Positions 1 to 55,100 of a stretch of DNA of 64,000 nt are shown here, piece by piece. The notes beneath the pieces were generated by a model. It saw only the letters and a list, made by a program, of their open reading frames with translations. It was not told where the DNA came from and did not search any database. The stretch comes from Chrysomallon squamiferum. Lineage: Eukaryota; Mollusca; Gastropoda; Neomphalida; Peltospiridae. The stretch covers positions 11,171,904 to 11,235,903 of the forward strand of contig CM022672.1 in NCBI GenBank assembly GCA_012295275.1, written 5' to 3'. How positions within the stretch are numbered: the first letter of the stretch is position 1; each line of letters opens with the position of its first letter. The position numbers were made by a program, and so were the translations under genes.

Positions 1-499
1 GAGAAAGTGTTACGAGAATTAATGACATGGCCTATGAACGACATAATGGATTTAAAGAATTATCTTACATTAATGAAATTAGAAGTGTACAGTACATTCA
101 ATGATTCATGATCCAGTTTATACTCAGTTTTCCAAGTATTTATGAGGTTAATAATATTATGCAGTTAACAGATAATTTCAAACACCTTTACTGTTGGCAA
201 GCTCTGTTTATCAATATATCTTTATATGACAAACATTTAGGCAGAAGTGTCATTTGTGGTTAGAAGTAAAAACTGATGATGTGAAGTTTCAGAATCATTC
301 CTCTGCATTGCTGTTGACAGTGTTGCAGAATATCTTTCCTGTCTGTAACACATCTTTAGTCAAAATGCCTTGTATGTATGTTTATAAAATTATTCTGCAG
401 TACTCAGTAGTTTAATTTATTATTAATATTTGCATTTCTTTATTTCAGATTTATGTGCAACAGTTAAAACGCAAATCTGGCTTTTCTTCTGGATGGAAG
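1..499. other. Upstream flank or intron of R3HCC1L
   Basis: No convincing coding exon is seen here. A pyrimidine tract and AG at about 440-448 could be an acceptor. The frame that continues into the R3H exon has a TAA at 465-467, so coding in that frame can start only after it. Upstream exons of R3HCC1L, if any, probably lie left of the window. Confidence 0.5.
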
Positions 500-15121: not shown

Positions 15122-15305
15122 ATGTTTTATAGTCAGGATATTTTACAGAAAAGAGGTGGTAAATTTGGAATAATATGGTAAGTTGTAACAGGGAAGTATT
15201 GCATATTGAAAATTAAAAACATTTTTTTATTTTTTATTTTCCTTTTTTATAGTATTATTACTAATGCCACTACCACTGCTGTGGTTCATACCACAACTAT
15301 TACTA

Positions 15306-15337
<32 letters not shown>

Positions 15338-20675: not shown

Positions 20676-20709
<34 letters not shown>

Positions 20710-25313: not shown

Positions 25314-27000
25314 CAACAAGAATCAATTCGTAGAATTCCTCAACCATTCTCATAAATCCCTTATTGTTGTTATTGTTTTATAAAATTTATTTATATATTT
25401 TAAATTTTAGATGTTTTTGCATAACAGTATTTAAGATTTATAGTTTGTTCTGACAAGAGTATATGATTTTTGTTTAAGTAATCATGAATTGCATCGCCTA
25501 ATTATGCATGAAAATTAAAAATACATATGCATTCTGCTGATCATGGCATAAAATGAATAATTCATTATACATTTTTTCTGCATGACAACATGATGAAATT
25601 TTCACTAATAATGTTATTGTATTATTAAAATCTTTACTAATTGATCAATTTTAAATTGAGTGGATATATATAACATCTTAGACAAAAACGAATTATTTAT
25701 TAAAAAAAAAAAAAAAAACAAATGTTTCAGACAAAAGAGTTAATTCTCTTGTTAATTCATTATTTTAATTTTTGGGGGGAAATAAAGTTGATATTTTATT
25801 TTTGCTGAACAGATCTTAATTACAAAATATATTTGTACCAGAATAATTTTATTTTGAATGAAAGCATTACATTATAGCAAGAATTTTAGAATATCGTATG
25901 TCTAATTCTAATGATGTTATTAAGCATGTTTATTTTAATTATTTCAGTGATATTGGCCAGATAAAACCAATGTGAATAATTCATTGGCAATCAAGTAGTT
26001 TAAACATTTTGAAGCCAACTTAACACTGTATTAAATCATGTATTTGTTTTAAGGAAGGATGGATTAATTGTGACTTTTAACTTTGAATATTTAGACATGG
26101 TTTTCTTGTGTACACCAATGCATATTCATTATTAAATGATAAAATATTTTCTCTTTTGATGATTTGAAATGAAATTTGTATTTAATCATGTTGTTATTTA
26201 TTGTTGTTTGAAACATTGTTATTGTTTTAAATATTTGTTACATTGTTGAATTTTCAAGGTTTGTGAAACTGGAAAAACAAATGTTTAAAATATTTGTTAA
26301 AAATATCTGAATAGTTATGACTGATTTTTTCAAACATTATGTGGTTTCACACAAAAACTATTATATTGTTGTTATGCTTATTTATTAAAAATAATATAAC
26401 TTTACATAATGAAGAGGTATCCTAAATTTCAAGGCCTAGTTTATATGGAATAAATGTTTGTCCCATTTGTTCATGTGAACATGTATGTATATTACATTTA
26501 AGTATGTACATAAATACTGGTTGTAATTTAAATAATGAATCGCATTCCAAATTGAAGTTTATTTAGAATAAATGCATTTCTTCCATTCATTTATGTGAAA
26601 AAGGTAAAATGACATACATTATATCTAAGTATATGTGTGAATCCTGAGATTATTCATTTAATAATACATTGTTTCAAATTAAACAGTTGTGCCAAATTGT
26701 TTTATTTTGTTAGTATAAGAAATATATTCTACATTTTTCGTTATGGCAGTTTAGCCATTTAAACATATACACCTTGGTGCTTTCGTATCACTTCAAATAT
26801 TCAGATTTTTTAATCTGCACTGGTATTGCCCTCTCTTTCCAATGTGCAATATTGAGGTTTACTGAATTACTATCATACTTGTTTCAGTGATTTTTTTTGT
26901 TTTTGTTTAATGTTGTCTGGAAAAATATCTTGTTAATCATGTTACGATTTATTACCTTTGTTATTTGTAAGTTATTTGTTTTTTGAATGAATTGGTTTCA

Positions 27001-28090: not shown

Positions 28091-29560
28091 TTGTTTGTTT
28101 TTTTTAAAGGGGGAAAAAAACAATTACACTACAAACAACACCCAATGGCAACCAAACATACGAAAACATAGGGAACCGTCACTGATGACTCGGATATGGA
28201 AACTATAGTTCCCAGACGACCGAGTGACAGGAGCCCTAACTCAGAAGAAAAAAACAAATGTAACAGGAGACAAAAAAAAAAAAAAGAAAAAAAAGAAACG
28301 AACAACACATCCACACACACCCATACATTCTGACTCGGAGGAAACAGCGGAACAAAAAATCATAAATCGAAACCTACACATATTAGCAAGCCTTAGCGAC
28401 ACCGAAAACGAAAGCGATGCAAACATTTGGGAAACAACGAAAAAAAACAACACATAAAAATAACATATTGAACGCCGAGATACCATCGCGATACAAAAAA
28501 AAAAAAAAAAAAAAAAAAAAAAACAGGCAGATATCGAAAAAAGTTGCGATATTTGTTAGAAGCGCAAATACATATCATCGATAAAACAACTGAAGTAAAC
28601 AAAATCATTAAAAGCTATAGGTCCCAGCATAACTATCTGGGAAGGAGTATTTATTACCAAAAATAATCCCTGACAGCAGACAAACAAAGAAAATACCCAT
28701 ACCACAACCCAGAAAAACACTACTCACGCAACAGCAGCCAAAGCAAACATTAATTACACAGCAACAAAACAACCCAAACAAACAACAAAGAAACAACAAA
28801 TTCACAAAAACATCTCCAAAGATTTGGGTTTTTACTACCCGTACGCGGACAAGCATGATTTCTTTGAGATGTTTAACAAAGAAATAATACAACAAACAAT
28901 CAACTAAACAGCGACCATCACCCAATACTCACCAACTACAACAGCAAGAACACTTTCTCGGATAGATCCATTTCCACACCCAAATGGAACTTCAACAAAG
29001 CGGACTGGGAAGGCTTCTACAAAGCATGCAGAAATATCACCACATAAAACCCAACGACATCGACACCTTCTGCGCATCGCTCACCAACACGATACACTCC
29101 ATTGCTAACAAATTCATACCCAAAACCAGACAATGCACCGGCAAAATATCCACTCCCTGGTGAACGGAACGCATAGAAAAGAAATGCAAAAAAAGAAACA
29201 TCTTCAAAAGACAATACAAAAAAGACCGAAATCATTCCACACACGAAAAATACAAAATACCAAAAAAAAAAAAAGAAGTTTCCAACCTAATTCTCATCGC
29301 AAAACAAGAACACTGGGAACTCTTTTGCAACAACATCGACCACAAAACATCAGTCAAAGACATATGGGCCAAAGTGAAAAACATCCAAGGCAAAAAACCC
29401 CACAGAATCAACACTCTCGGCAAAAACAACATCGCATTCACAGACCTACTCAGCGTAACTTTCGCCAAGTCCAGCAGCAGTTTCGAACTTCCCACTGAAA
29501 TTCACAAAGAAACTACTGGACAACCCAACAAATGACGAACATTCCGCAGACACAGAACAC

Positions 29561-30300
29561 ATGAAATACAATCAACTCTTCAACATCAGCGAATTAAAAC
29601 ATGCCCTCAAAAACAAGAAAAGTACAGCCACGGGGCCAGACAAAATAAGCTACACAATACTACAACACCTTCCAGATGAAACACTACTAATCTTATTTGA
29701 TCTCTACAACACAATATGGACCATAGGCAAGATTCCAACAAACTGGAAACACGCCGAATGTTTCAGCTTGCCCAAACCACACAAAGATCACTTACTACCC
29801 AACAGCTGCAGACCGATCACGCTGACGTCACACATGTGCAAAACACTGGAAACGATGATCAACACACGCCTGAACCAGCATCTAAACGACAACAATTTAA
29901 TTAGCAAATATCAAAGCGGCTTCAAGAAGAAACACAGCACAAACGACCAGATCACCCGTCTGCAAACATCAATCAACCAATCTTTTAGGAAATCGAAAAA
30001 AAGTCATCGCAATATTCATAGACATTGAAAAAGCCTTCGACATGGTTTGGAGGGAAGGACTGCTCGTCAAATTAATCAACAACAACATCAAAGGCAACAT
30101 GTTCAACTTCATTAAAGACTTCATCAACAACAGATCCACAGCCGTCAATGTGAACGGTCACACCTCCGAAAAAAAAAAACGACAATCGACAACGGCATCC
30201 CACAAGGATCCGTGATCTCGCCTACACTCTTCAACGTTTACATCAACGACATCGTCACAGCACTCGACAAACAAGATAACGTCAAAAATCCACCAACCGA
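29561..30300 (+). pseudogene. LINE reverse transcriptase, first part (frameshifted)
   Basis: The frame starting at 29561 has the RT entry region (ATGPDKISY, WKHAECFSLPKPHKD, NSCRPITLTSHMCKTLE, YQSGFKKKHSTNDQ). The frame breaks near 30000. RT continues in another frame with motif A (IDIEKAFDMVW, about 30015-30050) and, after a further shift, motif B (NGIPQGSVISP, about 30190-30225). The ORF then runs into the inserted sequence beyond about 30315. Multiple frameshifts show it cannot make a working enzyme. Confidence 0.88.
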
Positions 30301-34094: not shown

Positions 34095-34282
34095 ATGATA
34101 TCGAATATTGAGGATATTTTAAAGAAAAAAGATGGTAAATTTTCAGTAGTAAGGTAAGTTGTAATAGTGAAATATTGCATATTGAAAATTAAAAACATTT
34201 TTTTAAATTTTATTTTCCTTTTTTTATAGTATTATTACTAATGCTACTACTATAGCTGTGGTTCATACCTCAACTATTACTA

Positions 34283-34345
<63 letters not shown>

Positions 34346-37300
34346 TAGTTTTTAGTAATCATAAATTAAATAGCTTTGAAATGCCAACTGCATCTAGTGT
34401 ATATTTAATATTTGAAGTTATGTAAAAAAAAAAAAAAATACAATTAAAAGAAAACATTTTAATTTTTTTATATATATTAATTTGTATCTTAAATGACATG
34501 TACTATAAAATCTATTTAATATTTAAGATCGGTATCGAAAGTACCTTTTTAATATAATTCGAGTTCTACAAATAAACAATCAGAAACTGTAATTTATTTT
34601 ATTTGCTTTATTGATTTAGGACAGCTGCGAAACATCCCGAAAAATTAACTCGACGGGATTATGCCAAAGTGAATGTAAGAAAAACCAGGTATAACTGATT
34701 ATCAAGAAAAATTTCTTTTAACTTTTTATTTTCAAAAGCAAAAATTTATTTTAATATTATATTTTATTTCATTTCACATCACCTTTACTGTCTTTATCGG
34801 TAAAATGAACCATCAAATTAAAACATGCAACAAACATTTTGTACAAGTTTATTAAAAATGTTAAGAATTTAACAATAACTTGAAAAAAAAAAAAAAAATA
34901 ATAATAATAATGATTCGTAAGTTGTTTTTTTCCTTTTAATGATGTACAGGATTATATAAATCTGTTTACATTATGTAAAGAAAACGTTTCTGAAACTGTA
35001 CAAAGAAGTCTCAAAAAACAACAGTAACAAAGAAAATGATTCCTTAAAATATAAAGCTGCTTGTAAGTACTGGTATATAACTGACTTTCCAGTGAAGAAA
35101 TTTTGGATTGTATACAAGTTCCCCCCTCAGAGGCAGGAAGCTATGAAACTCGACGTTCTCTGTATTTGTCTTCTCAACTTCTGGTCGGTGCAGTTCGCTG
35201 TCTTGATAAACAGGCGGACTATTTACTAGGTTTGTATCACCTTAAGTGTTACTAAGGAATGTGAAAAGCTGGTTATAAGAAAGTTACAACTTAATTTGAT
35301 TCAGATATTATTCTTTCATGTTCGTTAACTTTATCGTTTTTAAAGAAGACTATTTAACAAATGACAGAGATGGGTAATTTTGGTAATTAGACAATTGTGA
35401 GTTAGTTACCATTGAACAAGATTGCACATAATTCTGTGTAGAGATTTCTTTTGGTCAACACAGTCTAAGTGTTGAAAACCTTTCTAAATGCTGCCAACTC
35501 TTTCACTGAATCCCAATTTCTCTCCTTTAGACTTTAGGTTACTTTTTAGAATTTGTCATTTTGTATATGGCCTAAGATCAGATCAAGTAGATTAATTGTT
35601 TTACATATTATTTACAGGAGAACAGCAAGTTCTGTGGTAAGTTAAAATAAGGGAAACATTAGAAATTTCTTTTAATCTATGACCGTGTGCTGGGCAATCG
35701 TCTTAGGAATGATTTTTCTATTTGAAATTGCTGTCGTGATCTGTTAAAATACTGCTAAATTATCAATTCCTGTTTTCTGACATCTCTCCACTGTCTTAAG
35801 TTTCTTTCTACACTTCTTCTTTCGACTTGCTATTTCAGGACTGATTTAGTGAGAGTAAATTATTTATTTTATTATTACTTTATTTTTCATGAAAAGGTGA
35901 TCTTCGTGATTTAGCTGGACAAATTAAAAGTACTGAAACTCGTTCTTCAATACCTGACATAGATCTAAAAGTAACGCCTAGGTAAATTATGTGTGATATG
36001 TTAAAACTTGTATAAAAACTGGGTACTTTGTTTTCAGAGGTTATTTTACATTTCTTGAAACAATGTAGTTTTAACATTTGCAAATAAGATATTTGATTTA
36101 GATACGTAAAATATAATTTAACCTGAAGTTTTCCTCAGCGGTCTAAAAACAGTCTTCTGATAAAAAATATTTCATCTGTTTTGAAAAAATTGTTTTACTT
36201 TTTTATTTTTATTTAACTGAAAGAAAAGGACAAAGATATGTCCTATAAACTTTAAAAAAAAAAGAAAAAATTTTACTCAGAGCATAAACAACAACAACAA
36301 AAAAAAAAAAAGAAAAAAAAAAAAAGAAGATAAATAAAACATATTTTTAAAAGGAATCCAGATATAGTTCTCTCTTTCTTATTATATTTAATATCTGTGT
36401 CAGAATTAGATAATAGAATTTGTAAAGGGTCATTCCGTGTCAAATCACCCAATGGTTTAAACCCGACCGTCTCAGATTTTTATGAAACTTGGTATACTTG
36501 TTGACTGGGATCCCACAGCACCAAATCTGAAATTTTAGCTCAATCAGACCAGTGGTGTGGGAGATACGGCCCACCGAATTTTGAGATTTTTGCCAAAAAT
36601 GGGTGTGGCCACCAACCTTAGAACCCTCACATCTCAGGAACTACTGGGCCAATCTTCATAAAATTGGTATTGTTAGAAAGGCAAAATGACAAGGATACCA
36701 AATCTGCCATTTTTGTTTAGTTTGGAAAATACTGGAGTACCTTGACCTTTTGACCTTTGCTATGACCTTGAAACTGACCATGTGGATCACGTGATCTTGA
36801 GATGACCTTTGTTGAAATTTAATCTCCCACATGTTAACTAAAACATATAAAAGTTTCCTGGGTGTAATATTTTTTGTTTAGCCACAATATAGATTTAAAA
36901 AATGCACATACATGAAAATAACACCTTTTCAGCCATTAACATCTGATTAACTAAAACCTGAATGATCAATTCTGGATGCTAGGGATCACCATCTTTCTTG
37001 ATCATCAAGTAAGACATTGTAGGCCTACATGTATGCATAAAGTTCACATAAATTTGAGAGAACTAGGTGTTTCTGATGCTTAACCTTCTCACTATGTTTG
37101 TTTCAAATGCTCACTGTATCCTTCATTCCCAGACACATTCTACTGTTCTCATCACTTTCATAAAATTGGATTATTTCCTCCTTCAATTCATTGTCCTTTC
37201 AATGGTAAAGGGTGACAAAATCAAGATTTGCACACACTCTGGGTAGGATTCAGACATTAAGATGTCATTTTAATGTTACTGTAGCTGATGCTAGTTTTTT

Positions 37301-40300
37301 TCTGTCCTTTCATTCATTTACTGGAATTTGCTAGTGAATGGAGTTTGAAGAGGAGTTTCACCTAAACTCGACAGAATAGAATTCAAATCAAAGTCCTTTT
37401 CTGGGGAAACAACAACCAGTGGTTTGTCTGGCAAGTTATCACCAAATTCTCCCATTGTAATACCACCCATACTAAAGCCATCCTCTGCAGGACCTTTGAT
37501 TTCTGAAGGGTAATCAGACAGTCACAGCACAACTTGTCTCCTGGCACTAGTGTCTTTGGAGGATTTACTAAGCATTTGTAAGTGCCCATGCTAACAATTC
37601 TTAAAGATCTAGTGCGTGCTTGCTCAGGGTGGCGATTAAGGGGATCACAACAGTTTTTCTGCAATGTTGAAAATTTGATGAAAAGTTCTTGTTCGTGATA
37701 CTCTTGATGTCCCGTGTTTTGATCCCACTTCAAAGAGTGAGGAGTTCAACTTCCTCAGTTTTCCATACACTTCGCAACAACTCCTTTTTGATATGATGGT
37801 GTTGATAACACACATTTTCAGGAGAGTTAAAGCTGCAGTTAGCCCTGGAAGAAATAAGGATTTTCAGTATTGGCCTGCACCTTCAATTCAATAGAACAAA
37901 GTCAGTGCTTTCCTAAATATTAAATCAAATCCTGAAACCCTTTCAGTAAAGTTAAGCAGGTCATAAAATGGCAGCAGAGTACATGTGTTATTGCCAAAGG
38001 CCCACAAGTCTTGGGCATTTATGTCAATCTTCTCAAGTATAAATCACAGTTTATTAAGGTGAAGTAGACCTTGTTCATACTCTGTGCCGAAGACTGGGTG
38101 TACAAATACATTATGCAGTACATCACTCGATGACGTCTGATTTCAGACTGGGTTGTACTGTTGTTGACTGAAACCTTGTTCAAAACCAATGGCACGGCCC
38201 ACATGACATGATAAAATTACTTAATAGGTTTTATGAAATAAAAATATTGTTTATATATCAACATCTGACATTGTGTCCAACTTAAAAAGCTTCAGATTGT
38301 CAAAGAAATGCAGATGAAGAAACTTCTTTGTCTTAAACTTCTAATTGCCATGTGTTCAATGGGGATTGCACCAGGGAATCTAAAGGAGTTCCTGACCTGC
38401 CTGAAGCATCACTTCCTGTTAACCCTTTCAGCCTGATTGTGTACAACATGTCATGCCATTTGGCATCTTTTCATATCCTTCAGGCATTCCTTCAGACATG
38501 TCAGATGGGTTTTAACTCCAAAGATGAGTTTTTAGTCTCAGAAAAAATGTACATTGTAATGCATAGTATCAATCATCCATGCAGGTATGCATTTTTTAAA
38601 TCTATTATGGCTAAACAAAAAATATTATACCCAGAAAACCTTTATATGTGAACTTTATGCATACATGTAGGCCTACAATGTCTTACTTGATGATCAAGAG
38701 AGATGGTGATCCCTAGCATCCAGAATTGATCATTCAGGTTTTAGTTAATCAGATGTTAATGGCTGAAAAGGTGTTATTTTCATGTATGTGCATTTTTTAA
38801 ATCTATATTGTGGCTAAACAAAAAATATTACACCCAGGAAACTTTTATATGTTTTAGTTAACATGTGGGAGATTAAATTTCAACAAAGGTCATCTCAAGA
38901 TCACGTGATCCACATGGTCAGTTTCAAGGTCATAGCAAAGGTCAAAAGGTCAAGGTACTCCAATATTTTCCAAACTAAACAAAAATGGCAGATTTGGTAT
39001 CCTTGTCATTTTGCCTTTCTAACAATACCAATTTTATGAAGATTGGCCCAGTAGTTCCTGAGATGTGAGGGTTCTAAGGTTGGTGGCCACACCCATTTTT
39101 GGCAAAAATCTCAAAATTCGGTGGGCCGTATCTCCCACACCACTGGTCTGATTGAGCTAAAATTTCAGATTTGGTGCTGTGGGATCCCAGTCAACAAGTA
39201 TACCAAGTTTTATAAAAATCTGAGACGGTCGGGTTTAAATTTCTTTTTTTTTTAGGTGATTTGACACGGAATGACCCTAAAAGTTTATTCATAAATATTA
39301 TATAAAGAAAAATAATTAGCATTTTTAATCATTTACATATTTTATTAGAAATACAGCTTTTCTTAGAATAAGGACAGTTAAATAAGGTGATCAAATAATG
39401 AAAAATTCCTAAAGTACTCTGATCAACAATTATCCTTGTTTTTCTAGTTTTATTAACTTTAATAAAAGTAGTCTAATATTAATGTGTGTCTTTCTGTATG
39501 AATATAAATGTATGTATGTATGTATGTATGTAACCTTAGTTTGTACTATTTAAAAAATTGTAATTCCAGAGCTGAACAGGTTACTCTGATGGACATGACT
39601 GATGCATCTGACATACGTAACCCAGCAAATGACCCTACTTTTGGAAAATTCGACAAGGAAGAAATGACAAAGGAACTGGCTATGTTGGTTTGTTCAGTTA
39701 TTGTTATTGTTGGTTTTGTTGTTAATTTGAATACTGAAATTGGAAAATTCAAAAAAATATGAAAAGGAAAGAATGAAGAAAATAAAGATTTCCTATTCAT
39801 ATTGTTATAATTTTTTTTTCTTCTATTTTTTCTTTTTCCTGTAACAGAAAATCTGACCACGTATACATTATGAAAATACTGACCAGTTATTGAACTAGCA
39901 AACATTGTTTATAAATTGTAGATGTACTATCCATGTGTTTGGCACTAAATATAGTGTGTTATGATTCTGAAACTTTGAACATTCAAAAGCTGGTGATAAA
40001 TTTAACATATTCATTTCTTGTTGGTAGAAATAAGTGATAATAATTTTACAGGAGGAATGGAGGATGCGGATGTCAGTGGTACCTTCTGGAAGTCCATCCA
40101 TATCGCACTTGCCAACAACACCCAGAATGAAGAAAGATATAAAAGAGAAACCATTCAAACCAGGTTTGTTTATATTAAATACGACCTTAGTGGTTTGTAT
40201 AGTTGGCTTAAATACATGTTCTGTACTCAGGGGTGACTGTTTTACTATCAGTGTTTGATATCAGTTATATAAAATAAATTTATAAATAATGCTGGAGACC

Positions 40301-41029
40301 TGCATTTTATGTTAAACAATATTTAAGATAGATAATTGCTAAAAATAAAATAATATCTGAACATACTGTAGCTGTAGTTCATCAGCACAGTCTTTGTACC
40401 CATTTGCACCTTTCTGTAATATTCTGTTTATTTTAGAAAGGTAACAATATTATTGTTATGTACAAATTTCAGGGGTTCCAGTTTTATCATTATCATTATC
40501 ATCATTGTCATTATCATTATCATAATAATAATTATTTATTTATTTATTTATTTTTATTTGGCAAAGATCTAGTTGTTCAATGGAGAGGGCAAAGTTATTT
40601 AGTATTGTGGTATTTTATTATTAACAAAGATTGTTTAGACGTGACAAATCAGCAGGGACTTCAGAGTAGGCAAAATGTGTTTAAAGCATAAAGACATACT
40701 TTACAACTTAGAACTGTTGCCTAACTTCTCATAGAACAAAATAAAAATAAAATGTTAAAGCAAATAAAGAATTCTTTTCTCTTTGTTTTTTCTTTTTTTA
40801 AGTTGCTGGAGGTCCACATATGGTGTCTAATCCTGAAGACATTAAACTTAAAGAAATATGTACCCGAATACAGTCAATAGAGGTTTGGTATTATTTGTAA
40901 TAATTTACTAATGTTTTAGACCTGAATAATAGTTGGATTTAAGAGAATATTAAAACTAGATTTTATTTCACCAGAATTATTAATAAGATGGTTTTTCTTT
41001 TCTTCTAAAATGCAAATGTTCAGAACAAT

Positions 41030-41089
<60 letters not shown>

Positions 41090-43698
41090 AAGAATAAAAA
41101 GAAAAGAAAAAAATGAAAATAAATAAATAAAAAATAAAATAAATAATAATGATGATTATAATAATGAAATTATGCAATTGTGTATTCTTAATTAATTCTG
41201 TTTTTAATTATAGTAACATGTGGTACATAAAAATACTGAACCTGACCAAAACATGCCAGATCAGATAGATAATAACTGAATCTGACTGAAAAGGACTTTA
41301 AAATGAATATACTTGCACTTTTTCAGTTTCAGTTTCAGTTAATTTCTGATGCATACATCCAGTGTATTAAAATGATTTCAGATTCCTGGTGAAAAAGAAC
41401 GTCCTGGATTGTTTGATGAAGATCTGCATTTAGCCAAGGATTCTCCTGAAGCAGATATCTTGGTTGAAGAGTTGTTGTCTCCAACAACAAAGTCAAGAAT
41501 AACTGAAATGTAGGTACTTTTCAACTCTGATAGCATCATGGCCATCAATATACCATTAAATGACTGCATTAGATATAAAATCCTGCCAGATTTCACTGAT
41601 TAATTCAGCTGAGAATGTCGGCAAAACACCCTACAAAGATTGGATCTATTAAAAGAGTCTAGCTGTTTAATAAAAAAAAATTTCATTAACAGTTGTATTT
41701 CTGAAATTTTCATTTTTTATTTAACTGTTAATTAAAATGAATCAATTGAATTATGTTTTTTAAACATCTTAGGCAGTTTTATTTCTGCGTAACAGTTTTT
41801 AATTTGAATATTTAAAATAATTTTGTATCTTCCATTGAAAGTTTATATATTTTCGTTCTATTATTTTAATTTTTTTCCCAGTGAATCTCTAACACCTGAG
41901 GAAAAAACACCCGCAGTTAGACCTGTTCAAAGGAGAGCACCTCCTTCACCCGGTGTGACTCCTGCACCTCCTACAAAGGTGTGTGGAAAAAGTGATAATA
42001 TAAAAAAGATGACACAGTTAATACAATGCCATGTTTAAATATTGTTTAAATAATAATTAATAAACATTCATAAAACTACAGCTATTTGCATCTCAAAAAT
42101 AGTGTCTCTGATTTTCTTTTTGTTTTGTAAATTAGATTGTTTATTGTCACCAACTAATTTCTTAAATCTCGCTGGTTCATAAATAAACCCATTACTTGAT
42201 TCTTGAAACTGATTTTTCTCTAAGATTTTAATTGTTTTTTATAAAACATTTGAAATATCACCTACTATCTTTTCTTAATAAGCTGCTCTATACTAAGCTG
42301 TAGGCATGAAATATTTTTATTTTGTCTTTTTTTTTTATATATATATATATATTTATTTGTTTGTTTGTTTGAGACCTAACCTTACAATGGAGTTGAATCC
42401 AATTACTTCTGATCCTGTAAGAAGACAAAGGGAGCAACATCTCTTAGTCGACAGAGAAAACAAGATTCCTTTTAAAAGAATGAGAGAACAGCTGCTTACT
42501 AGATCTCATACTTGTATTTCTTTAGTAAGTTAAAATGGAGTCTGTTAAAGAGGACGTTTAGAAGTACATACTAATGGCCTAAAAAAAAAAATTACTTTAT
42601 GTTTTGGGTAATTTTTGTTAGGTTTCATTCATCCAAAAATACATTTATTCACTTTTGGATGAAGAACATTCACCAGTGGTAACTGTAATAATTTATTGTG
42701 ATTAAAAACAAGTTTTATTGATGATATTGCTCTTGTATTATTTTGATTTATATCTATTTCAGACTGTTTAAAAAGACTATTTCTGTTTTAAAAGACTGCT
42801 AAAAGACTAAAGAGTATAAATTTTGGTATAAATTACCAATATATACATGTCACTGAATATTAGGATTTAAAGAAAGAATATTTGTCATGATTTAATCTTT
42901 TCTTAGATTCGACCTGATCCACATCCATCCACTGTTGATGAACTCTTTAATTATCCTGGAAGAAAAAGTAATTAACTGTATATTCTTATGTTTTTGCTTT
43001 GCCAGTAATTCTTTGAAACTTCAGTAGTAGTAATTCTTCTTTAATTTTAAGTCTTTCTTTTTACTTTTTTATATATACAATCCAGTGATCATGAAAAGAC
43101 TGATCATTAACAATGTTGTGTATCATATGCCTATCTGTGATGAGAACAGAGTTTATTTATGTTGGTTTGTCACATATTAATTTATGTCAAAAAGAGTTGA
43201 GTTAAAATCATAATGCTAGCATTGAGTAGAGATATACACCTCCTTTGAAGATAAATTTCATTAAAAAATACCCAAAACAACTGACTAAGCATCAAGATGA
43301 GTTTAACTAAACTTTGCTAGATTCTGGTAATTACGTATTCTAGACACTATTCTGAATAAAAAGTAATTTGACTGAAAGTAACTATCAACTCTTATTAAAA
43401 ATAATTAGTAAAATAAATATGTCGAAGGATTTTTAAAGTTCTGTTTTGTATTTTAGCATTAAGGCATCCAAAGTTGTTTCCACTATGGAAGCAGAATGCT
43501 GAAATTGGAGATACTCCAGAAACCAAATCTGAGAAAAATACTCCAATATGGACAGTTTCAGAACTAGGTAATAATTTTATTTTAATCAGATATTGTTATC
43601 AGTTAATTGATACCATGATAAATATGATGTACTGAAATAAACTGAGTTTTTTTATCAGTTAAAAATTCTCATCAAAATAAAGTTTCTTGCTTTCATTT

Positions 43699-43731
<33 letters not shown>

Positions 43732-46700
43732 TATATCTATAAATTAAATGAAACAATAGATTCACTTAATTTTTCTGGTTTGTTATAAATAAATCTTTAA
43801 ATATAAATATATATATATATAAAAATCTTTAAATAAATCTTTAAATAAATAATATATATATATATATATAGATCTTTAAATAAATCTTTTAAATAAATCT
43901 TTAAATTTATATATATATATATCTGTGTGTGTGTGTCCTGTATAATTTTTGGTGCTAATTTTTCTGTTTGTACTGCATCTGAGTTTAATTTCAGGTACTC
44001 ATAAATCTCTAAAAGACACTGAATTACTGAGTTCACGAAGATCAAGAAAAGAGCTTCCTCCTCAGGCTTTGGAAGGCCCTTTGGAAACAGCTAGGGCTGC
44101 AGAGGTATTTAATCATCTATATTTCACCTACCTCACCAGATAGAAGTATCTTATAGTCTATATTTCACAGGATTCAGTAAAGAGAGGTATTTTATAATCT
44201 GTATTTCATTGATATCATAGATGTATTTTATAATCTATCACAGATGTCAGTTGATAGATGTATTTTAAGTCTACATTTCAAAGACCTAAGTAGACAGTTT
44301 ATATTCAACAGACCTAGATGGAGATTGTATTTCTAATAAAGAGATATCAATAAAGAAAATAATTATTGTTATTTCAGACTTTTAATAATTATAAAGATAC
44401 AAAAAGTAATTAAATACAGTGCTTTGTGTTTGTTTACAAACATTAGCAAAGGTATATATGAATGTAATATATATATATTTACATTCACATATATTTATTT
44501 TAAGAATTTGTTTGCTGCTTTTTTTTTTTTTTCAGTAACTAGGTTTCAAAAAGCAACACTCTGGTTTGATTTGTTGAAGTCAAGATCAAAATAGCTAATA
44601 TTATATATTTTAGATTTCAGAGAGTGAAATAACAAGGACCCAGTCTCTGGAAGGGACCCTTCAGGGTAGAGCAACATCTGTTTCCATGGAAAGAACCATT
44701 TCTTTCAATCGAGAAAAAAGCTTGGATGATCAAAGTACTGACAAAATTGAAGAGACTCTCCAAGCTCAACCTGTGTATGTTTATAAAAATTCTTTTGTCT
44801 AAAATTTAAATATTGTTAAAGATTGTGTTACGTTTCTTGTGAAGGATGATATATAACAGTTATGGAATAAGTGTGTGACTGTTTAACGATGTTTCAGCAT
44901 GTTTTACTATTAATACTTGTTATGTATTAGACAGACTTTTGGGGGTTATTTCTGTCAGTTGGCAGCAAAATACCTTTTATTTGCATTGTCACAAAAGCCA
45001 TCAATAACATTTTAGTATTAGGTATTATACTTTTTTTTGCGTAATGATAACAAGAAAAAAAAGCTTTCTGTTGTACTTCATGGATATAAAACACATATTA
45101 TGACCTTTCAATAAACCAGTTATGGAGCATAAAAAGTTCTGTAAATTACATCTGTACCAGCAAATTAAAACCCACTAATAATGTTTATGGTGATACTAAC
45201 AGCAAAGAAATAAATATGTCTGTACTTAAATAATTCCCACATCTGCTCTTCTCTTTTTACTGATTTTAAAAATATTATGTAATTATTTTGTTTCAAACAG
45301 TCTTAGGGAAATACCTATTCCTGAAGATGAGATGTATGCAGAGGCTCAAACTAGAGAAAGTACATCTGTCAGAGATCTTGGCAGTCTTTTTGTTGTACCT
45401 GAGGAGAAAGAAGATGGTGTAAGTCCGTTAGTTCCACCTGCTCTTGAAATACCCCATCATGTTTCATCTATAGAGGTCCTAAGGTAACCCATATTTGTTA
45501 TTTCTCACCTAGTAAATATAGCATTCTTTTATAAGTAAAAGTTGCAAAATAATCTCTTTTTGACTAGTAAACAGCTGATTAAAGCTTATTTGTATTGTAT
45601 TAATTTTCTACAAATCCTTTTTCTTTCTTCTTTTTTTGGTTATTAATTGTGAACCAAAGGACATGTATATAGTAGTCAAGATTTATTTATTAGATAAAAT
45701 ATATTTCTAGACTAATGCAGTATTTTACAATTTGTATTTGAATTCATTTTTAAATTTAGAATGTGGAAATCTATTGATTTTGTTTTATTTTTTAGGAAAT
45801 TCATATAGAGTTGTTTAACAATAAAAATAAAGATTAAAATATATTTCAATATAAACATTTAAGAAACAACTAAATAATAACAATTAAATGGTGTTTCAAA
45901 TATATTTGAGAATTATCTAATTTTAACAGCTGCATCAACTCTCAATTGAAATCAAAAGAAGAGACAACTTTCAGAGATATCTGCCCAACAAACAAAACAA
46001 GACCCTATGCAGCTCAGATGTTTTCTGAATTTCTTCGTATGTATATAGAAGTGTATTTTCTTTTCTTTTTTAAAATCTTCTTCAAACTGGAAATCTATAA
46101 TATCCTGATTTTAAAACTGTAAAGTTACTGCATTATATTTTAATGGTTTTGTGTTTTAAAGATGTGATAGACAAAAAATAAGAATGCACATCTAAGATTT
46201 CTAAATTACTGAATATGAAATGAAATCTGCAGATTTATATATATTTAAAAATAAAGGGATTGTAATGAATGAATTAATAACTGGTGTTCACAATATCTCA
46301 TCACATTTTATTATCTTCAAAATCTCAAGAATGTGCATACCATAAACCTTTTGTAAACAAGTTGGAACAGAAAAAGATAATGATAAGCCCTATAACTGTT
46401 TAGGCCTGCAATATAAACTGAGCTAGAGCTATTCTTATTTGTATGAAATGTACAAAGCTTAAATGAGGTATTTGAATGTAAGAAAAATTATTGTTGATAT
46501 CAATCAGCATCACTATTTAACAGTAATAGTCAACATAACATTTTAAAAAATAACTTAATATCAAACCATCTGTAAATAATGAAAATAAATATCTGTATAT
46601 TAATTTTCCTAAAACCGATCCATAATAGAAATATAAATTTAATTTTTTTATAGTTTTAATTATATCAGTATGTGCATTAGGTAATTTAATTATCTTAACT

Positions 46701-46844
46701 TTTACAATGGTTAGGGTATATCAGTTTTATTTCACTAGTTATTTTTATTTCTTTCATTCATTAGAATTATGTAAAACCGGTCAAGTATCTGCACGACAAG
46801 AAGAACCATATGGAGATATTTACATTACTCGTGGTGCAAACTGA
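34095..46844 (+). CDS. REC8: REC8-like kleisin, copy B (diverged; exon 10 acceptor damaged)
   Basis: Exons: 34095-34153, 34620-34688, 35093-35229, 35897-35981, 39570-39687, 40052-40163, 40803-40882, 41382-41509, 41882-41978, (42372-42524), 42907-42967, 43457-43567, 43995-44104, 44614-44774, 45301-45483, 45930-46036 and 46765-46844. Every exon is open: 616 residues with exon 10, 565 without. The ancestral ATG is ATA here and the ATG one codon upstream is used. MFY becomes MIS and the Trp of IIWIAA becomes Arg. The CAG before exon 10 is missing; the only AG there gives an immediate TAA, while skipping exon 10 keeps frame. The C-terminal SMC1-binding exons 16-17 differ from copy A by one residue. 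It could be a specialised paralogue or an early pseudogene. Confidence 0.8.
34281..34345. repeat. (TTA)n microsatellite, REC8 copy B intron 1
   Basis: About 21 TTA units. The matching tract in copy A (15302-15337) is about half as long. Confidence 0.93.
36427..39277. mobile_element. 2851 bp DNA transposon with inverted arms of about 630 bp, in REC8 copy B intron 4
   Basis: Begins GGGTCATTCCGTGTC and ends with its reverse complement. Left arm 36427-37050 and right arm 38645-39277 are near-identical inverted copies. Flanks are TAAA on both sides; copy A has the uninterrupted site (TTTGTAAAAGTTT near 17848), so the target duplication is TAAA, 4 bp. The 1.6 kb centre carries a broken ORF on the minus strand. 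Next to the right arm, inside it, a 60 bp piece of the arm is repeated (about 38585-38645). The superfamily is unassigned: the long arms resemble foldback elements, and the 4 bp A/T duplication fits several superfamilies. Confidence 0.9.
37318..37733 (-). pseudogene. Frameshifted ORF remnant inside the long-arm transposon
   Basis: The minus-strand frame from 37733 encodes a Cys-rich stretch with CCDPLNRH, SLRIVS, and LVPGDKLCCDC. It then continues in a shifted frame with a Gly/Asp/Pro-rich stretch (GGITMGEFGDN, PLVVVSPEKDFDLN), ending at a stop at 37318-37320. The change of frame lies near 37500. It is probably a piece of a protein encoded by the autonomous element, but no transposase catalytic motif was seen. 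The paired CC and CxxC cysteines may bind metal (inference). Confidence 0.5.
41030..41084. repeat. (AAT)n microsatellite, REC8 copy B intron 7
   Basis: About 17 units. The same intron in copy A has only a short, interrupted version (about 19648-19670). Confidence 0.93.
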
Positions 46845-48585
46845 CAACAAGAATCAATTCGTAGAATTCCTCAACCATTCTCATAAATCCCTTATTGTTG
46901 TTATTGTTTTAAAAATTTATTTATATATTTTAAATTTTAGATGTTTTTGCATAACAGTATTTAAGGTTTATAGCTTGTTCTGACAAGAATATATGATTTT
47001 TGTTTATGTAATCATGAATTGCATTTCCTAATTATGCATGAAAATTAAAAATACATATCCATTCTGCTGATCATGGCATAAAATGAATAATTCATTCTAA
47101 ACCATTATAAATTTCTGCTGCATGATATGATGAAATTTCCACTAATTTGTTATTGCATTCTTAAAATCTTTACTAAGTGATCAATTTTAAATTGAATAGA
47201 TATATATAACATCTTTGTTTGACAAAAACGAATGATTTATAAAACAAAGAGAAAAAGTGTTTCAGACAAAAGAGTTAATTCTCTTGTTAATTCGTTATTT
47301 TAATTTTTATTGGGAAATAAAGTTGATATTATATTTTTGCTGAACAGATCTTAATTACTAAATATATTTGTACCAGAATAATTTTATTTTGAATGAAAGC
47401 ATTACATTATGGCAAGAATTTTAGAATATCGTATGTCTAATTCTAATGATGTTATTAAGCATGTTTATTTTAATTATTTCAGTGATATTGGCCAGATCTT
47501 CAATTAAATAAAACCAATATGAATAATTCATTGCCAATCAAGTAGTTTAAAAAATTTGAAGCCAACTTAACACTGTATTAAATCATGTATTTGTTTTAAG
47601 GAAGGATGGATTAATTGTGACTTTTAACTTTGAATATTTAGACATGGTTTTCTTGTGTACACCAATGCATATTCATTATTAAATGATAAAATATTTTCTT
47701 TTGATGATTTGAAATGAAATTTGTATTTTTATCATGTTGTTATTTATTGTTGTTTGAAACATTGTTATTGTTTTAAATATTTGTTACATTGTTGAATTTT
47801 CAAGGTTTGTGAAACTGGAAAAACAAATTTTAAAATATTTGTTAAAAATAACTGAATAGTTATGACTGATTTTTTCAAACATTATGTGGTTTCACACAAA
47901 AACTATTATATTGTTGTTATGCTTATTTATTAAAAATAATATAACTTTACATAATGAAGAGGTATCCTAAATTTCAAGGCCTAGTTTATATGGAATAAAT
48001 GTTTGTCCCATTTGTTCATGTGAACATGTATGTATATTACATTTAAGTATGTACATAAATACTGGTTGTTATTTAAATAATGAATCGCATTCCAAATTGA
48101 AGTTTATTTAGAATAAATACATTTCTTCCATTCATTTATGTGAAAAAGGTAAAATGACATACATTATATCTAAGTACATGTGTGAATCCTGAGATTATTC
48201 ATTTAACAATACATTGTTTCACATTAAACATTTGTGCCAAATCGTTTTATTTTGTTAGTATAAGAAATATATTCTACATTTTTTGTTATGGCAGTTTAGC
48301 CATTTAAACATATACACCTTGGTGTATTTACCATACTGTGCTTTCGTATCACTTCAAATAGATTTTTTACATTATGTCACTTAATCTGCAGTGGCACTGC
48401 CTTCTCTTTCCAGTGTGCAGTTCATTGAGGTTTACTGAATTAATATCATACTTGTTTTAGTGATTTTTTTTTTTGTTTGTTTAATGTTGTCTGGAAAAAT
48501 ATCTTGTTAATCATGTTATTTTATTACCTTTGTTATTTGTAAGTTATTTTTTTTTTGAATGAATTGGTTTCAAATAAAATATTCA
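46845..48585 (+). other. 3' UTR of REC8 copy B, including poly(A) signal at 48573-48578
   Basis: Nearly identical to 25314-27010 over its whole length, with scattered substitutions and small indels. The AATAAA at 48573-48578 matches the one at 27001. No coding sequence recognised. Confidence 0.65.
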
Positions 48586-49701: not shown

Positions 49702-52128
49702 TCAAAGATACTGATTGTCTTTTTCTAGCAGATGACTATGTGATTCTTGTGACAATAGTTGAACATGGTGAGCAGAGCCAGGGATGTGGTCAATCATGCC
49801 GCTGTACTGCACAGACGTGGATGTCAAATGAATCTGGCTTGATAAGGAGGTACTTTGCTGTAATGAATTCTGTGACTGTCCTGAAGGCAGAGTGGATGGA
49901 TGAGTTAGACAATGAAGAGACGTCAGGTCAGTTTGGTTTGCTGAAGGATTCTGAAGATGTCTCTGACTTGGAAGGTCTGTCACAACTTGCCTCATTGTAG
50001 CCATGTTGGAGTGACGATTACTGGTATGACGGGGAGTTGGATCGTTCATATTCTCTGTTACAGATGGCAGAAAATGCTGCTGAGACAATGTTGGGGAATG
50101 ATCTCGTAGTGGCATTGGATTCTGTGCAACATATTTCATCACAGAAGATTCTGGTTTCATTACCGCATTAAAGTTCAAAGCCGAATTAATTGTCATACGT
50201 GTTGAAATACATTCCTCTACCGGTTCATTTATAGACACTTCAGTTATACAATTCTGGAGCTCTTCTGGAGTCAGGATCTTACCATGACTCTTTATGTGTG
50301 TCCTCATATTATCTGCTCTGGTTCCTGTCTTTCCACAAAACTTACAGACGAACTGGCGTGCTGGAGCATGGATAGTTCTGACGTGTTTGCTTAAACCACC
50401 TTTATCTGGAAAACAGCTTCCACAAGTATGGCATACAAAGGTCCTTTCAGGATTATGGCGTTTTTCGTGAGCTTTGCAACAGTTTTTAGTTTTGAATGTT
50501 TTCGAACAAATGCGACACTGAAATGGAGTGTCACTTTTGTGAGTGTACTGGTGAGTATATAATGAGGACATACATTTGAACGTCTTTCCACAAAGTTTAC
50601 AAGAAAAAGGACGGGCATCCATATGGACGAAAACGTGAGCATCTAAATTACTCTTGAACATGAACTGGCGGCCACAAATGTCACACATAAATCGATTGAC
50701 ATCATCAGTATGACGACGTCGATGCACGTTTCTTAAATGCTCGGACTTATAGTATTTCAAACATATATCACACTGGTAGTTCTTTTCAGAAACATGAAAT
50801 GATTCTTCATGTGCTTTGAGTGCTTGGCGAGTCACAAACCCTTTGTTGCACATTGAACATTTATGTGGTCTTTCGTTCATATGTATCATCATGTGCGTTT
50901 TTAAGCTGTTGTTGTAATTAAATTCCTTGCCACAGCAGCTGCATGCAAATTTTCGCTTCTCCCCACAGTGATGGATAGCTTGTTTGTGAGCTTTCAAATG
51001 AGTGCCTGTTAGATATGACTTGTCACAGAGGTCACACTGGTAAGGTCGCTCGCCCCGATGTTTTCGCATATGTAATTTATAACTGTGATGGAAGTTGAAG
51101 AACTGACCACATTCTTCACATGAATACGGTTTGACTTTACTGTGCAGACCTCTTTGATGATGAGATAAAGAATCAATGGAAGAAAAGTTTTTCCCGCACT
51201 GGTCACACTGAAACTTTGACCAGTGACGATTTGTATGACGTCTGAAGGCTCTTTTAGTTTCAAAGGTTTTGTTGCACAGCAAGCAAGCTAAATTAGTTAT
51301 GTCAACTGATGATTCTAATTGTCTACATTTCTCTTTAACTTCGATGCTTTCTTCCTTAGTTTGATGTACAGGTCTTTCAATTTGGCTTTTGTCCTATTCA
51401 ACTGTTTCATTTTGATTTTCAATGCTAATTTCGCTACTGTCCTTCGACCTTTATTAGAAACTGTCCTATTTCTCTGCGATTCTTTTCGAATTCGAGTAGA
51501 CCTCCTGTTTTTCGTTGGTGTTTTACAACCACCATCACTTTCAGATTTTCTTTTCTGTTTTCTTTTAGTAGTTGTCTGTGAATCATCACTTTCCTCACCT
51601 GTTAAATCTGGTTGATAATCATCATCTGATATATGTTCATTCTTTATCTTCTTACTCTTCTGAAAGTTAGAAGCGTCGCCATAGCTACTGTCATCACTGT
51701 CGATTCCATTACTATCATTCTCATTTGAAACCACTCGAACAACCTGGTAATGCATACTGTTATCAGTTCGGTTTGATTGAGCAGCTGCATTACTGTTATC
51801 TCCTTTTACAGTCTTTTTCAGAGGTATGATTGAGGCTGTAGGCAGACCATTTTGAGATTCTGTACTATCTTCATCTTTTACTTTCGTAATATCATCTGAA
51901 TGAACGTTTGGTGAGGCATTAACTTCTTTACCGAATGATGTTTCTACTGATATTTGCATGGTGGTAGCAGGATTCTGCTTGATGTGATTTTCTGCAATAA
52001 ATGAAGGAAATGTTCTTATTATAGAAGTCTGAAAGACAGTAACGAAGAAAAAAATAATAACACCATAAATATTAAAAATATATATTATAAAATACTTTTT
52101 TATGCTTTGGACATAGCAAACATTTTAT

Positions 52129-52164
<36 letters not shown>

Positions 52165-55100
52165 TATTATTATCATCATCCAGTGTATGGTAGTATGGAA
52201 TAACATCTATTGATTTCCATAAAGTGTTAATTGTAATTAATAATGTGAAAAAATAGCTTCAAAAAATAAACAAAATGGAATTTACCCAAAACACTTTTTA
52301 TTATTTCCAAATCAGTTGTCATTATCAAGGTTCAGAACAATTCATATGAAAAATGCGTAGGAAAAAGTATCCAAATTATTGTACTTGTTGATCAAGTGAT
52401 ATATGAATAAAAAGAAAATGTAGGAAAGGTATCATTAATCTGAAATAGAGAAAATAATATTAAAAAAAAAAAAAAACATCATGATTAATTTTCAAAGTTT
52501 CTACAACTGAATCCAAATCCATTAAATGTAAAACTTTGTAAAATCTGTAACTCTTTTCTTTCGTTTGTTTTGCATCTTAAATCATATCTGTTCTGGTTAT
52601 TGTATTTTATTAATATAAAACTGGTGCACTGAGGATAACGGTGGAAAATACCTTTATAACTTAAAAGGAAAAGAAAAAATGGCGGAACTGATTTTAGGTT
52701 TGGTGCCGTTTGTTTTGGATTTCTTAGATTTAGATGTTGAAGAATTAATAAAATCAGGATTTTTGTCAGACGAAACTTTTGATGAAGCTACCCTCGCTGT
52801 TATTATGCACTATGCAAAAGAACACCGGAAAAGGGCTTCAGTTCCTGTTGTCGAATGGGTTCCTACGGTAAGTCCCAAATTCGCAACTTGAAGTTCGTGT
52901 AACTTACAGAGTTACTCCTGAAATAAACTGTTTTTATTTTATGTACAGCCACAGTGATAAACATGAAAAGAAAGCCAGATTGACCTGACTTGATATTTAT
53001 TTAATTAATATTCAGCCCTCGAGGCATAGTTCTAGACTAAAGAACAACTGTGACTGCCATTAGATGATCATTAAAAAATTATATAACTTGTAAGCGAACA
53101 ACTATTGTCCAAAAAAGAAAGAAAGAAAAAAAAGATCTTTTGGGTTAGAATTTGAATAGAAATTTATTAACCTTTGTATATTATTCAGTTAAATAAATTA
53201 ATATTTTCATTTTTTTTTTTCTTTGTCATCCGGTGTGTGGATGCATGCAATAATAATTACTGATTTCTTAAGTATTGATTATATATTTTTACAAGTGAAT
53301 AACTCAATAAGCATTATTTAATATTGTATTTGTATGTGAACCTTCTTAACATTTTCTTAATATGTAGTTTAGTTTAATAGGGGAAAAATATATTATATAT
53401 ACTAGAACACAAAGTGAAGTATTATATATTTAATTATAATTGTTTTCTTTGACTTTTTAAAATTTAATGCAGGCACAGCAGCCTCCACCCAAAAGAGTTC
53501 GACGAAAGGAACCAGTACCTGACAAGTTTCTAGTTATTGCCCCCAGAGCTCGAAATGAACCAACTGATGAAGAATTTCGTTTAACATACAGAATGACTCG
53601 CACTTTGTTTGAAGACCTACTAAAAATGTTAGGAGAACTCACAGATATGCAGATGAAAAGGAAGTATGTTGGAGGCAAGCATGAAATACCTGTTGACTTA
53701 GCACTGTTAATGTCTTTGGAGTATTTAGGAAGCAGAAAAACAGTCAAAGACTTAGCTGTAAAATATGATGTTAGCACTTCATCTTCAATAGGCTGTTTCA
53801 AGAGATGTTTACCTGGGCTCTACCAACTGGTTAAACATCTAATCAAGTGGCCAGATAAAAATGGCATAGCATCAACCATGTTGGAATTTTCCCAGACCTA
53901 TGGACTTCCAGGACTTATTGGCGTCATTGATGTGGCCCACGTAAGAGTGAAAGCTTCTCAGTGTCATCATGATTACTACATGAATCCAAGTGGGGTACTT
54001 TCAGTTGTGCTGCAAGCAGTTTGCAATCATAAGTTTCAGTTTCTTCACTGCTGTACAGGGTGGCCAGGTTCTGTTGATGATTTCAGTGTCCTCAATGATT
54101 CTGATCTATATCAGGATGTCCAAAAAAACCAAGATGACTTTTTCCCAAATGGTAGCTTTGTGGTTGGTGATTCATCATATCCGCTATTTGACTGGCTTTT
54201 AACTCCAATCACTGACACTGAAGCTCTTTCTGGAGCCCAACAGACCTATAATTACACTCACAGTCTTGCTAGAAAATTATCGTTGAGAACGTTTACCCAT
54301 CTCAGATCCAGATTTCCAAGACTGAAATATGTTGATTTACATGACATGGAAGAAATTGTTAAAGTTATACTTGTTTGTTGTGCACTTCACAACTTCTGTC
54401 ATTCTAGAGGTGATACAGAACTGTTTGTGACTGAAGATGGAGAGCATGAAGAACTTAATTCAGGACCTTCCACTCATGCCACAGTTGAAGGTTTTCTCAA
54501 AAGACAGAATGTTGTTGAAATAATGCAGCAGACAATGACAAATACAGTATAAATAACATCTCAATTACTGATTTTATGAAATAAACTTATTTTTATACTG
54601 ACATCTGTCTCAAATTGTCATGGGAATTAACTTTGTTGTACCATTTTTTCAAATTTATTTATTTATTTCGTTTTTAAATAACAAAATAAATCTGTTAATT
54701 TATACAAAGCATCCCCCCCCAAAAAAAAATACAGAAAAAACCCAACCAAATACCGACAATAAATCAACCTGTTTTAATTGTTAAAATTAATACCTATTTT
54801 GTATAATCCTTCAAACGGAATTTAAAAGTCTTGGCTAACAGCAATACTAATATTAATAATAATATTACATTATTAGAACTATTAACTCTTTTTGTAGTCT
54901 TGTAAATGATACTATAGCAATGCTAGAAATAAGAAAATAATACGTGAAGAAAATATATTATAGTTAAGTTTGTTCATTCCAGATTTTGGATTAAAAAAAA
55001 TGTAGTATTATAGCATTTTCTTCAAATCATTCTTGCTTCTAGATCAGATAAAAATACAAAATGTTTTAAAAGTTGTAGCAGATATGATATGACTTGTTCA

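Follow-up and report, generated by a model that had tools for sequence, protein, structure and literature searches.

Lopsided, mosaic divergence of a tandem REC8 pair in the scaly-foot snail, with an altered SMC3-binding end in one still-open copy

Within a 64-kb window of the genome of the scaly-foot snail Chrysomallon squamiferum (contig CM022672.1, 11,171,904-11,235,903, forward strand; the window is the whole stretch of DNA analysed, and positions are numbered within it), two REC8 genes lie in tandem: copy A at 15122-25313 and copy B at 34095-46844, both on the plus strand and each with 17 coding exons once spliced. Kleisins shut the cohesin ring, binding the neck of SMC3 with their N-terminal domain and the head of SMC1 with their C-terminal domain. 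We found that the two copies have diverged in a lopsided and mosaic fashion. Polarised with the REC8 protein of Gigantopelta aegis, 66 replacements over 606 sites were derived in B and 26 in A, with 45 ambiguous (chi-squared 17.4); B has lost conserved N-terminal residues, its frame is open like that of A, and both the mix of replacement and silent changes and the divergence of noncoding sequence are uneven along the locus. The SMC3 end is thus remodelled or decaying in a still-open REC8 paralogue. We put it close to an even chance that B is a paralogue which still codes, that the constraint on it has altered and part of its change was directional, and that gene conversion contributed to the mosaic divergence.

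Two REC8-type genes

By both kleisin domains, its closest relatives and the presence of a separate RAD21-like gene, copy A is classified as a REC8-type kleisin. Its predicted protein of 623 amino acids scores 79.4 bits for Rad21_Rec8_N and 44.5 bits for Rad21_Rec8 in Pfam (cut-offs 23.1 and 22.7). That of copy B, 609 amino acids long provided that exon 10 begins at an in-frame cryptic acceptor, scores 50.7 and 46.8 bits, again above both cut-offs. The name REC8 is carried by 16 of the 25 homologues found for copy A (7996 candidates scored), and the name RAD21 by none of those listed. The closest REC8 is that of Gigantopelta aegis, a single mollusc REC8 match with the same domains, 60% identical to A and 54% to B; the conserved N-terminal residues described below are kept there and in A, and are absent from B. 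Judged by its sequence, copy B is a REC8 paralogue by descent, yet a non-canonical REC8 by motif.

A search of the 404.6-Mb assembly (22 contigs) with REC8 A placed all 30 matches at E 0.1 or better within copies A and B. The only other kleisin matches in the genome were one gene on C14, which we infer to be RAD21, and a weak match on C5 (L029, G000:C5:11472565-11472642), which covers 26 residues of Rad21_Rec8, contains one stop, scores 22.4 bits and possibly arose by chance.

Around the start codon, A reads ATC-ATG and B reads ATG-ATA, the old ATG now being ATA, and the start codon of B seems to have shifted one codon upstream. A donor-like site, AAG/GTGAGAGGAA, is conserved upstream of exon 1 in both copies (14328 and 33460), which suggests a first noncoding exon common to A and B. 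The coding exons are as follows.

Copy A exons 1-6, plus strand, GT-AG borders, open frame: 15122-15177, 16345-16413, 16805-16941, 17294-17378, 18154-18271, 18672-18780
Copy A exons 7-12, plus strand, GT-AG borders, open frame: 19430-19509, 19953-20080, 20526-20637, 21089-21244, 21552-21612, 22046-22156
Copy A exons 13-17, plus strand, GT-AG borders, open frame: 22373-22482, 22949-23118, 23728-23910, 24387-24493, 25234-25313
Copy B exon 1, 34095-34153, plus strand; 11 of 19 aligned codons changed, none synonymously; MFY...IW motif gone
Copy B exon 2, 34620-34688, plus strand
Copy B exon 3, 35093-35229, plus strand
Copy B exon 4, 35897-35981, plus strand; 13 replacement and 0 synonymous differences; flanks 5.7% diverged
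Copy B exon 5, 39570-39687, plus strand
Copy B exon 6, 40052-40163, plus strand; 3 bp longer than in A
Copy B exon 7, 40803-40882, plus strand; more replacement than local flanks predict
Copy B exon 8, 41382-41509, plus strand; 12 replacement and 0 synonymous differences
Copy B exon 9, 41882-41978, plus strand; 15 bp shorter than in A; 0 replacement and 3 synonymous differences
Site matching the exon-10 acceptor of A (CAG), gone in B, 42367-42371, plus strand
Copy B exon 10, 42393-42524, plus strand, if splicing uses the in-frame cryptic GAG acceptor that ends at 42392; encodes the first half of the stromalin-binding segment
Copy B exon 11, 42907-42967, plus strand; identical to A
Copy B exon 12, 43457-43567, plus strand; 5 replacement and 0 synonymous differences
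Copy B exon 13, 43995-44104, plus strand
Copy B exon 14, 44614-44774, plus strand; 9 bp shorter than in A; more replacement than local flanks predict
Copy B exon 15, 45301-45483, plus strand
Copy B exon 16, 45930-46036, plus strand; SMC1-end domain
Copy B exon 17, 46765-46844, plus strand, stop codon included; SMC1-end domain

Copy B has changed more than copy A

Nine of the 25 homologues were used for polarising, 14 for the structure alignment, and five, one by one, as outgroups in codon models. Among residues conserved in at least 7 of the 9 polarising outgroups, 21 are kept by A and lost in B, and 3 show the reverse. In a three-sequence codon model, with a mutation matrix derived from the introns, a mutation rate common to A and B, and the outgroup entered as protein only, the ratio of nonsynonymous to synonymous substitution (dN/dS, or omega) was 0.60 for A and 1.41 for B with Gigantopelta, and equality of the two was rejected (likelihood-ratio test statistic, LRT, 17.2). 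Four other mollusc outgroups gave the same direction (LRT 5.4 to 9.7), with omega B at 1.32-1.43. The acceleration of B relative to A is firm.

In an AlphaFold model, which is of the Gigantopelta protein only, residues 4-108 and 569-642 are ordered and the part between them is mostly disordered (mean predicted local distance difference test score, pLDDT, 51.9). Over residues 1-110 of A, 27 replacements are B-derived and 3 A-derived (p 8e-6), compared with 38 and 23 in the disordered middle (p 0.07) and 1 and 0 in the C-terminal domain. F2, G16, W19 and T23, which are invariant in all 14 aligned homologues, have become I, S, R and K in B, and the nearly invariant Y3, R11 and G12 are also gone. 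A scan with one pattern of all forward frames of the window revealed no alternative first exon through which B would regain MFY...IW.

Omega B for residues 1-110 is 1.58 (LRT 1.9) when the mutation rate is left free and 2.99 (LRT 26.7) when it is set to that of the whole gene, a difference that arises from an excess of silent changes in this part as well. For the C-terminal domain it is 0.10 with the whole-gene rate (LRT 13.3) and 0.29 with a free rate (LRT 1.1). The SMC1-end domain of B is almost unchanged, through constraint or gene conversion. Exons 10-12 lie within the part that aligns to the RAD21 fragments 4pk7 and 4pju, which we take to be stromalin complexes.

Replacement and silent differences along the gene

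A preliminary description of this DNA had singled out exons 4, 8 and 12, in which 13, 12 and 5 base differences all change the amino acid (30 of 30), the identity of exon 11 between the copies, and the greater similarity of the sequence flanking exon 8, and had described the copies as differing almost only by replacements in several exons, a pattern taken to point to positive selection rather than simple decay. Our codon recount agrees exactly, exon 11 contains zero differences, and exon 8 differs at 9.4% of sites, compared with 7 of 268 (2.6%) in its two 150-bp flanks. The counts were therefore correct, but the generalisation was wrong: over the 607 codons of the whole gene there are about 163 replacement and about 46 synonymous differences, which is the neutral ratio. 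Exon 12, moreover, is 4.5% diverged between flanks that are 11.9% diverged, and so gives no support to the claim of selection.

Differing codons number 168 (166 in a second codon alignment), of which 30 are purely synonymous, five each in exons 2, 5 and 14; this fraction, 0.179, compares with a neutral expectation of 0.191 (0.141-0.250) from the intron mutation pattern, from which a whole-gene replacement share of 0.777 is also predicted (observed 0.779). The preliminary description had taken a full-length codon model not above 1 to count against selection, and a value well above 1 in exons 4-14 of copy B to count for it. By maximum likelihood (F3x4), pairwise omega was 0.89 (0.66-1.21) for the whole gene, 1.11 (0.73-1.64) for exons 4-14, and 0.49 (0.27-0.99) for exons 1-3; dropping exons 4, 8 and 12 lowered the whole-gene value to 0.71 (LRT against 1, 3.2). 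Simpler codon-frequency models put the whole gene at 1.09 and 1.33, in both cases short of a significant excess over 1, equal codon frequencies gave 1.63 for exons 4-14 (LRT 5.1), and the Nei-Gojobori value for the whole gene was 1.04 (0.77-1.48). By the first of these criteria the claim of plain positive selection fails, and the pairwise dN/dS, being near 1, was not accepted as proving it; this value averages an ordinary A and a fast B.

The mix of silent and replacement codons is uneven across exons beyond chance (P 0.00015), and in exons 1, 4, 8, 12, 13 and 15 all 54 differing codons carry a replacement, none being purely synonymous (P 0.00035). When each of exons 2-17 (16 tested) was compared with the prediction from its own flanks, replacement was in excess in exons 4, 7, 8 and 14 (false discovery rate below 0.05) whether or not a composition factor set by hand was applied, and fewer replacements than predicted were seen in exons 9, 11, 12, 16 and 17 (lowest q 0.05). 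With the exon mask slid along the alignment, divergence was 13.1% in exons 2-14 and 9.9% in noncoding sequence, and 1.8% of shifts were equally high; for all of exons 2-17 the figure was 5.5% of shifts, and a Wilcoxon comparison of exon and flank divergence over the 16 exons gave p 0.23. CpG mutation was rejected as the source of the exon excess, since non-CpG divergence is 12.4% in exons 1-14 versus 9.4% in introns 2-13.

A reading frame without stops or frameshifts

Copy B contains no stop where a neutral branch predicts 5.0 (P of none 0.007), and no frameshift where about 4 are predicted from frame-breaking intron indels scaled to one branch. All four indels in the alignment of exons 2-17 are multiples of 3, compared with 31 frame-breaking indels in 6624 bp of intron outside simple sequence. 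B was therefore coding through most of its history, and a recent onset of decay is possible. The earlier rejection of simple decay is thus supported if decay means a neutral pseudogene of long standing, but not if it means early decay. Direct evidence of constraint on B is weak.

A mosaic of noncoding divergence

Introns of A and B differ by 9.3%. (The intron rate was taken from 5752 columns clear of gaps and simple repeats; in introns 3-14 the raw rate exceeds this one by a factor of about 1.17.) Noncoding divergence is uneven (chi-squared 130, 32 degrees of freedom), with between 1 and 37 differences in each 250 aligned bases, and drops toward the 3' end before rising in the last interval of the comparison. 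Identical noncoding runs of 218, 174 and 154 bp lie beyond the 95% limit of 113 obtained by shuffling. Noncoding sequence past the stop codon (25948-26700 compared with about 47483-48245) is nearly identical, with 1-7 differences per 250 bases, and no part of the duplication is more similar. The long identical runs fit gene conversion, although regional mutation or constraint could yield the same. Where conversion operates, selected exons can stand as peaks above more similar introns; exons 4 and 8 fit this, and the surplus of silent changes in exons 2, 5 and 14 may fit it too.

Selection on copy B and what weighs against it

With introns as the neutral reference and all exons included, omega B is clearly above 1 (LRT 12.9 to 23.8): it is 1.75 with the mutation rate fixed at the intron rate, and 1.49 (1.23-1.92) at 1.17 times that rate, to match raw divergence. 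Codons with at most one difference give 1.44 (LRT 2.6). Much of the signal is carried by exons 1 and 10; without them the intron reference gives 1.18 (0.91-1.45) at 1.17 times the rate and 1.38 (1.07-1.70) at the rate itself (LRT 1.6 and 6.0). A branch-site-type mixture gave an LRT of 25.7 for B, 13.2 without exons 1 and 10, and 8.2 for A. We set the result for B aside because it comes from few multi-hit codons (3-4% of codons, omega near 48) and because a weaker signal is found on A too. Of the earlier claim of positive selection, the outgroup sustains a fast copy B, whose excess over 1 is borderline against synonymous sites and clear against introns, while pairwise omega stays near 1. We regard positive selection on B as plausible, not as proven.

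Several observations weigh against a still-coding B shaped in part by directional change. Against exonic synonymous sites, omega B of 1 is not rejected (LRT 3.4, 5% two-sided; bootstrap 0.97-2.06), and without exons 1 and 10 a free rate gives 1.14 (LRT 0.4). Exons 1-3, which encode the lost N-terminal motif, give an omega B of 1.19 (LRT 0.2), together with their low pairwise value. Silent changes are themselves in excess, 14.5 versus 5.6 expected from introns in exons 1-3 and 44 versus 30-31 in exons 1-14, which protein selection alone does not explain; over local flanks the excess in exons 2-14 is slight, with about 43 silent changes seen where about 36 are predicted. Total replacement over the 16 exons exceeds the local-flank prediction modestly, at 150 versus 134. 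No single exon of the 16 has a significant replacement deficit after correction, and exon-wise deficits were for this reason rejected as proof of constraint; the 6 replacements in exons 9, 11, 12, 16 and 17, versus 16 for a neutral B (P 0.006), concern exons chosen post hoc. The near-unchanged C-terminal end sits in the 3' third, where introns are similar too. Finally, B has lost the exon-10 acceptor, 1 of its 16 acceptors. Both nearby AGs are GAG, a context found at 0 of 31 other acceptors, and one of them gives an immediate stop. Skipping of exon 10 would preserve the reading frame.

Explanations for the divergence

We favour, tentatively, the following course. REC8 would have been duplicated in tandem, with A retaining the ancestral protein and B remaining coding but coming under altered constraint. 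The SMC3-binding N-terminal domain of B and several exons of its disordered middle would then have changed as fast as neutral sequence or faster, probably with directional selection as part of that change, while its SMC1-binding C-terminal end was kept almost as it was. Gene conversion between A and B probably held parts of the locus alike, chiefly the 3' third, so that the divergence became a mosaic. In this working model, B would be a kleisin whose SMC3 gate is weakened but which could still hold SMC1.

Early decay is a close rival, somewhat less probable in our judgement. Here B would have lost constraint and accumulated replacements nearly neutrally, its frame surviving by chance, recency and conversion from A. 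The missing exon-10 acceptor, MFY, W19 and the 21 conserved residues are what decay would produce, as are a full-length omega of about 1, replacement and silent changes in their neutral ratio, an exon 10 that diverges like its flanks (16.3% and 14.5%), and the want of a significant exon deficit. Yet B is free of stops and frameshifts, replacement exceeds the flank prediction in four exons, and the point estimate of omega B is above 1 in every valid fit to the whole gene or exons 1-14, where partial relaxation predicts at most 1.

A bolder reading, which we regard as unlikely, makes B a neofunctional meiotic kleisin whose SMC3 gate was rebuilt by selection and whose SMC1 end was kept by selection and conversion. 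If so, the snail would have a second meiotic cohesin, easily opened or differently partnered, for instance in one sex, sperm type or meiotic stage. Recurrent positive selection on B through meiotic conflict, the view of the preliminary description, seems to us a little less likely again. It is in keeping with omega B at 1.49-1.75 over all exons with introns as reference, with the exons that hold replacement changes only, and with the positive selection described, in the part of the report available, for mammalian meiotic cohesin genes including REC8 (PMC11431564); however, omega B is not significant against synonymous sites, and the branch-site signal falls on few multi-hit codons, with a smaller one on A.

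That A and B are alleles or an assembly error is very improbable: the scaly-foot snail genome is highly heterozygous, at 1.38% according to the section available of PMC7142155, but the introns differ by far more, the copies lie on the same contig, where their insertions and their flanks differ, and exon-limited replacement is unlike a sequencing-error pattern. Least credible of all is the import of divergent exon pieces from a third REC8-like gene, which would account for exons that exceed their flanks at silent sites too; conversion from such a paralogue was rejected, as the genome search found no donor, either among REC8 A matches or among the other kleisin matches.

Mobile elements and neighbouring frames

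Intron 4 of copy B carries an insertion that is absent from intron 4 of A.

Insertion in B intron 4, 36426-39278, strand not assigned; about 2.85 kb, inverted ends of about 630 bp that are 97.6% alike

No stop-to-stop frame above 120 amino acids is listed inside it. A single piece 92-93% similar to it lies in intron 1 of A (15473-16122). Between the copies, an open frame at 29459-30028 resembles reverse transcriptase (RVT_1) and is probably a LINE-like remnant. Downstream of copy B, the minus strand bears an open frame for C2H2 zinc fingers (49702-51393), and at 53461-54552 lies a 363-amino-acid open frame with DDE_Tnp_4, presumably a Harbinger-type transposase.

Comparison with known systems

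Recent REC8 copies have been described in Daphnia pulex, where REC8A, REC8B and REC8C are about 90% to more than 98% identical in DNA and two adjoin (PMC2680839). The likeness lies in several recent copies in one animal, neighbours among them; the differences are that Daphnia B and C face each other head to head with more than 98% identity, and that a copy-specific loss of the SMC3-end motif is not described in the portion of that source at hand. In mammals, REC8 and RAD21L1 are, as here, fast-evolving meiotic kleisins, and the same partial source that reports selection on meiotic cohesin genes proposes intragenomic conflict (PMC11431564). The mammalian case, however, concerns orthologues of different species (REC8 dN/dS 0.267), whose selected sites lie chiefly in disordered regions, whereas the snail case concerns a paralogue in which the folded N-terminal domain is most altered.

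Drosophila UNO is a kleisin derivative without the SMC3-binding domain, comparable in this to the altered SMC3 end of B; according to the available text of PMC9767379 it also lacks the SMC1-binding domain and keeps the stromalin segment, whereas in B the SMC1 end is kept and the start of the stromalin segment is damaged. Human red and green opsins, duplicated genes under gene conversion, likewise show an exon divergence peak over more similar introns (PMC3924837, in part); the opsin peak is linked to a known function, whereas that in REC8 is statistical only. A literature search for REC8, gastropod and duplication found nothing about REC8 copies in snails, in the accessible parts of the papers returned (including PMC12360503, on silkworm sperm).

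The locus also carries a caution, for three replacement-only exons hinted at strong selection where a whole-gene omega near 1 combines one constrained and one accelerated copy. A REC8 paralogue that has an SMC1 end but lacks the conserved SMC3 end would be a natural test of uncoupling both gates of the cohesin ring in meiosis.

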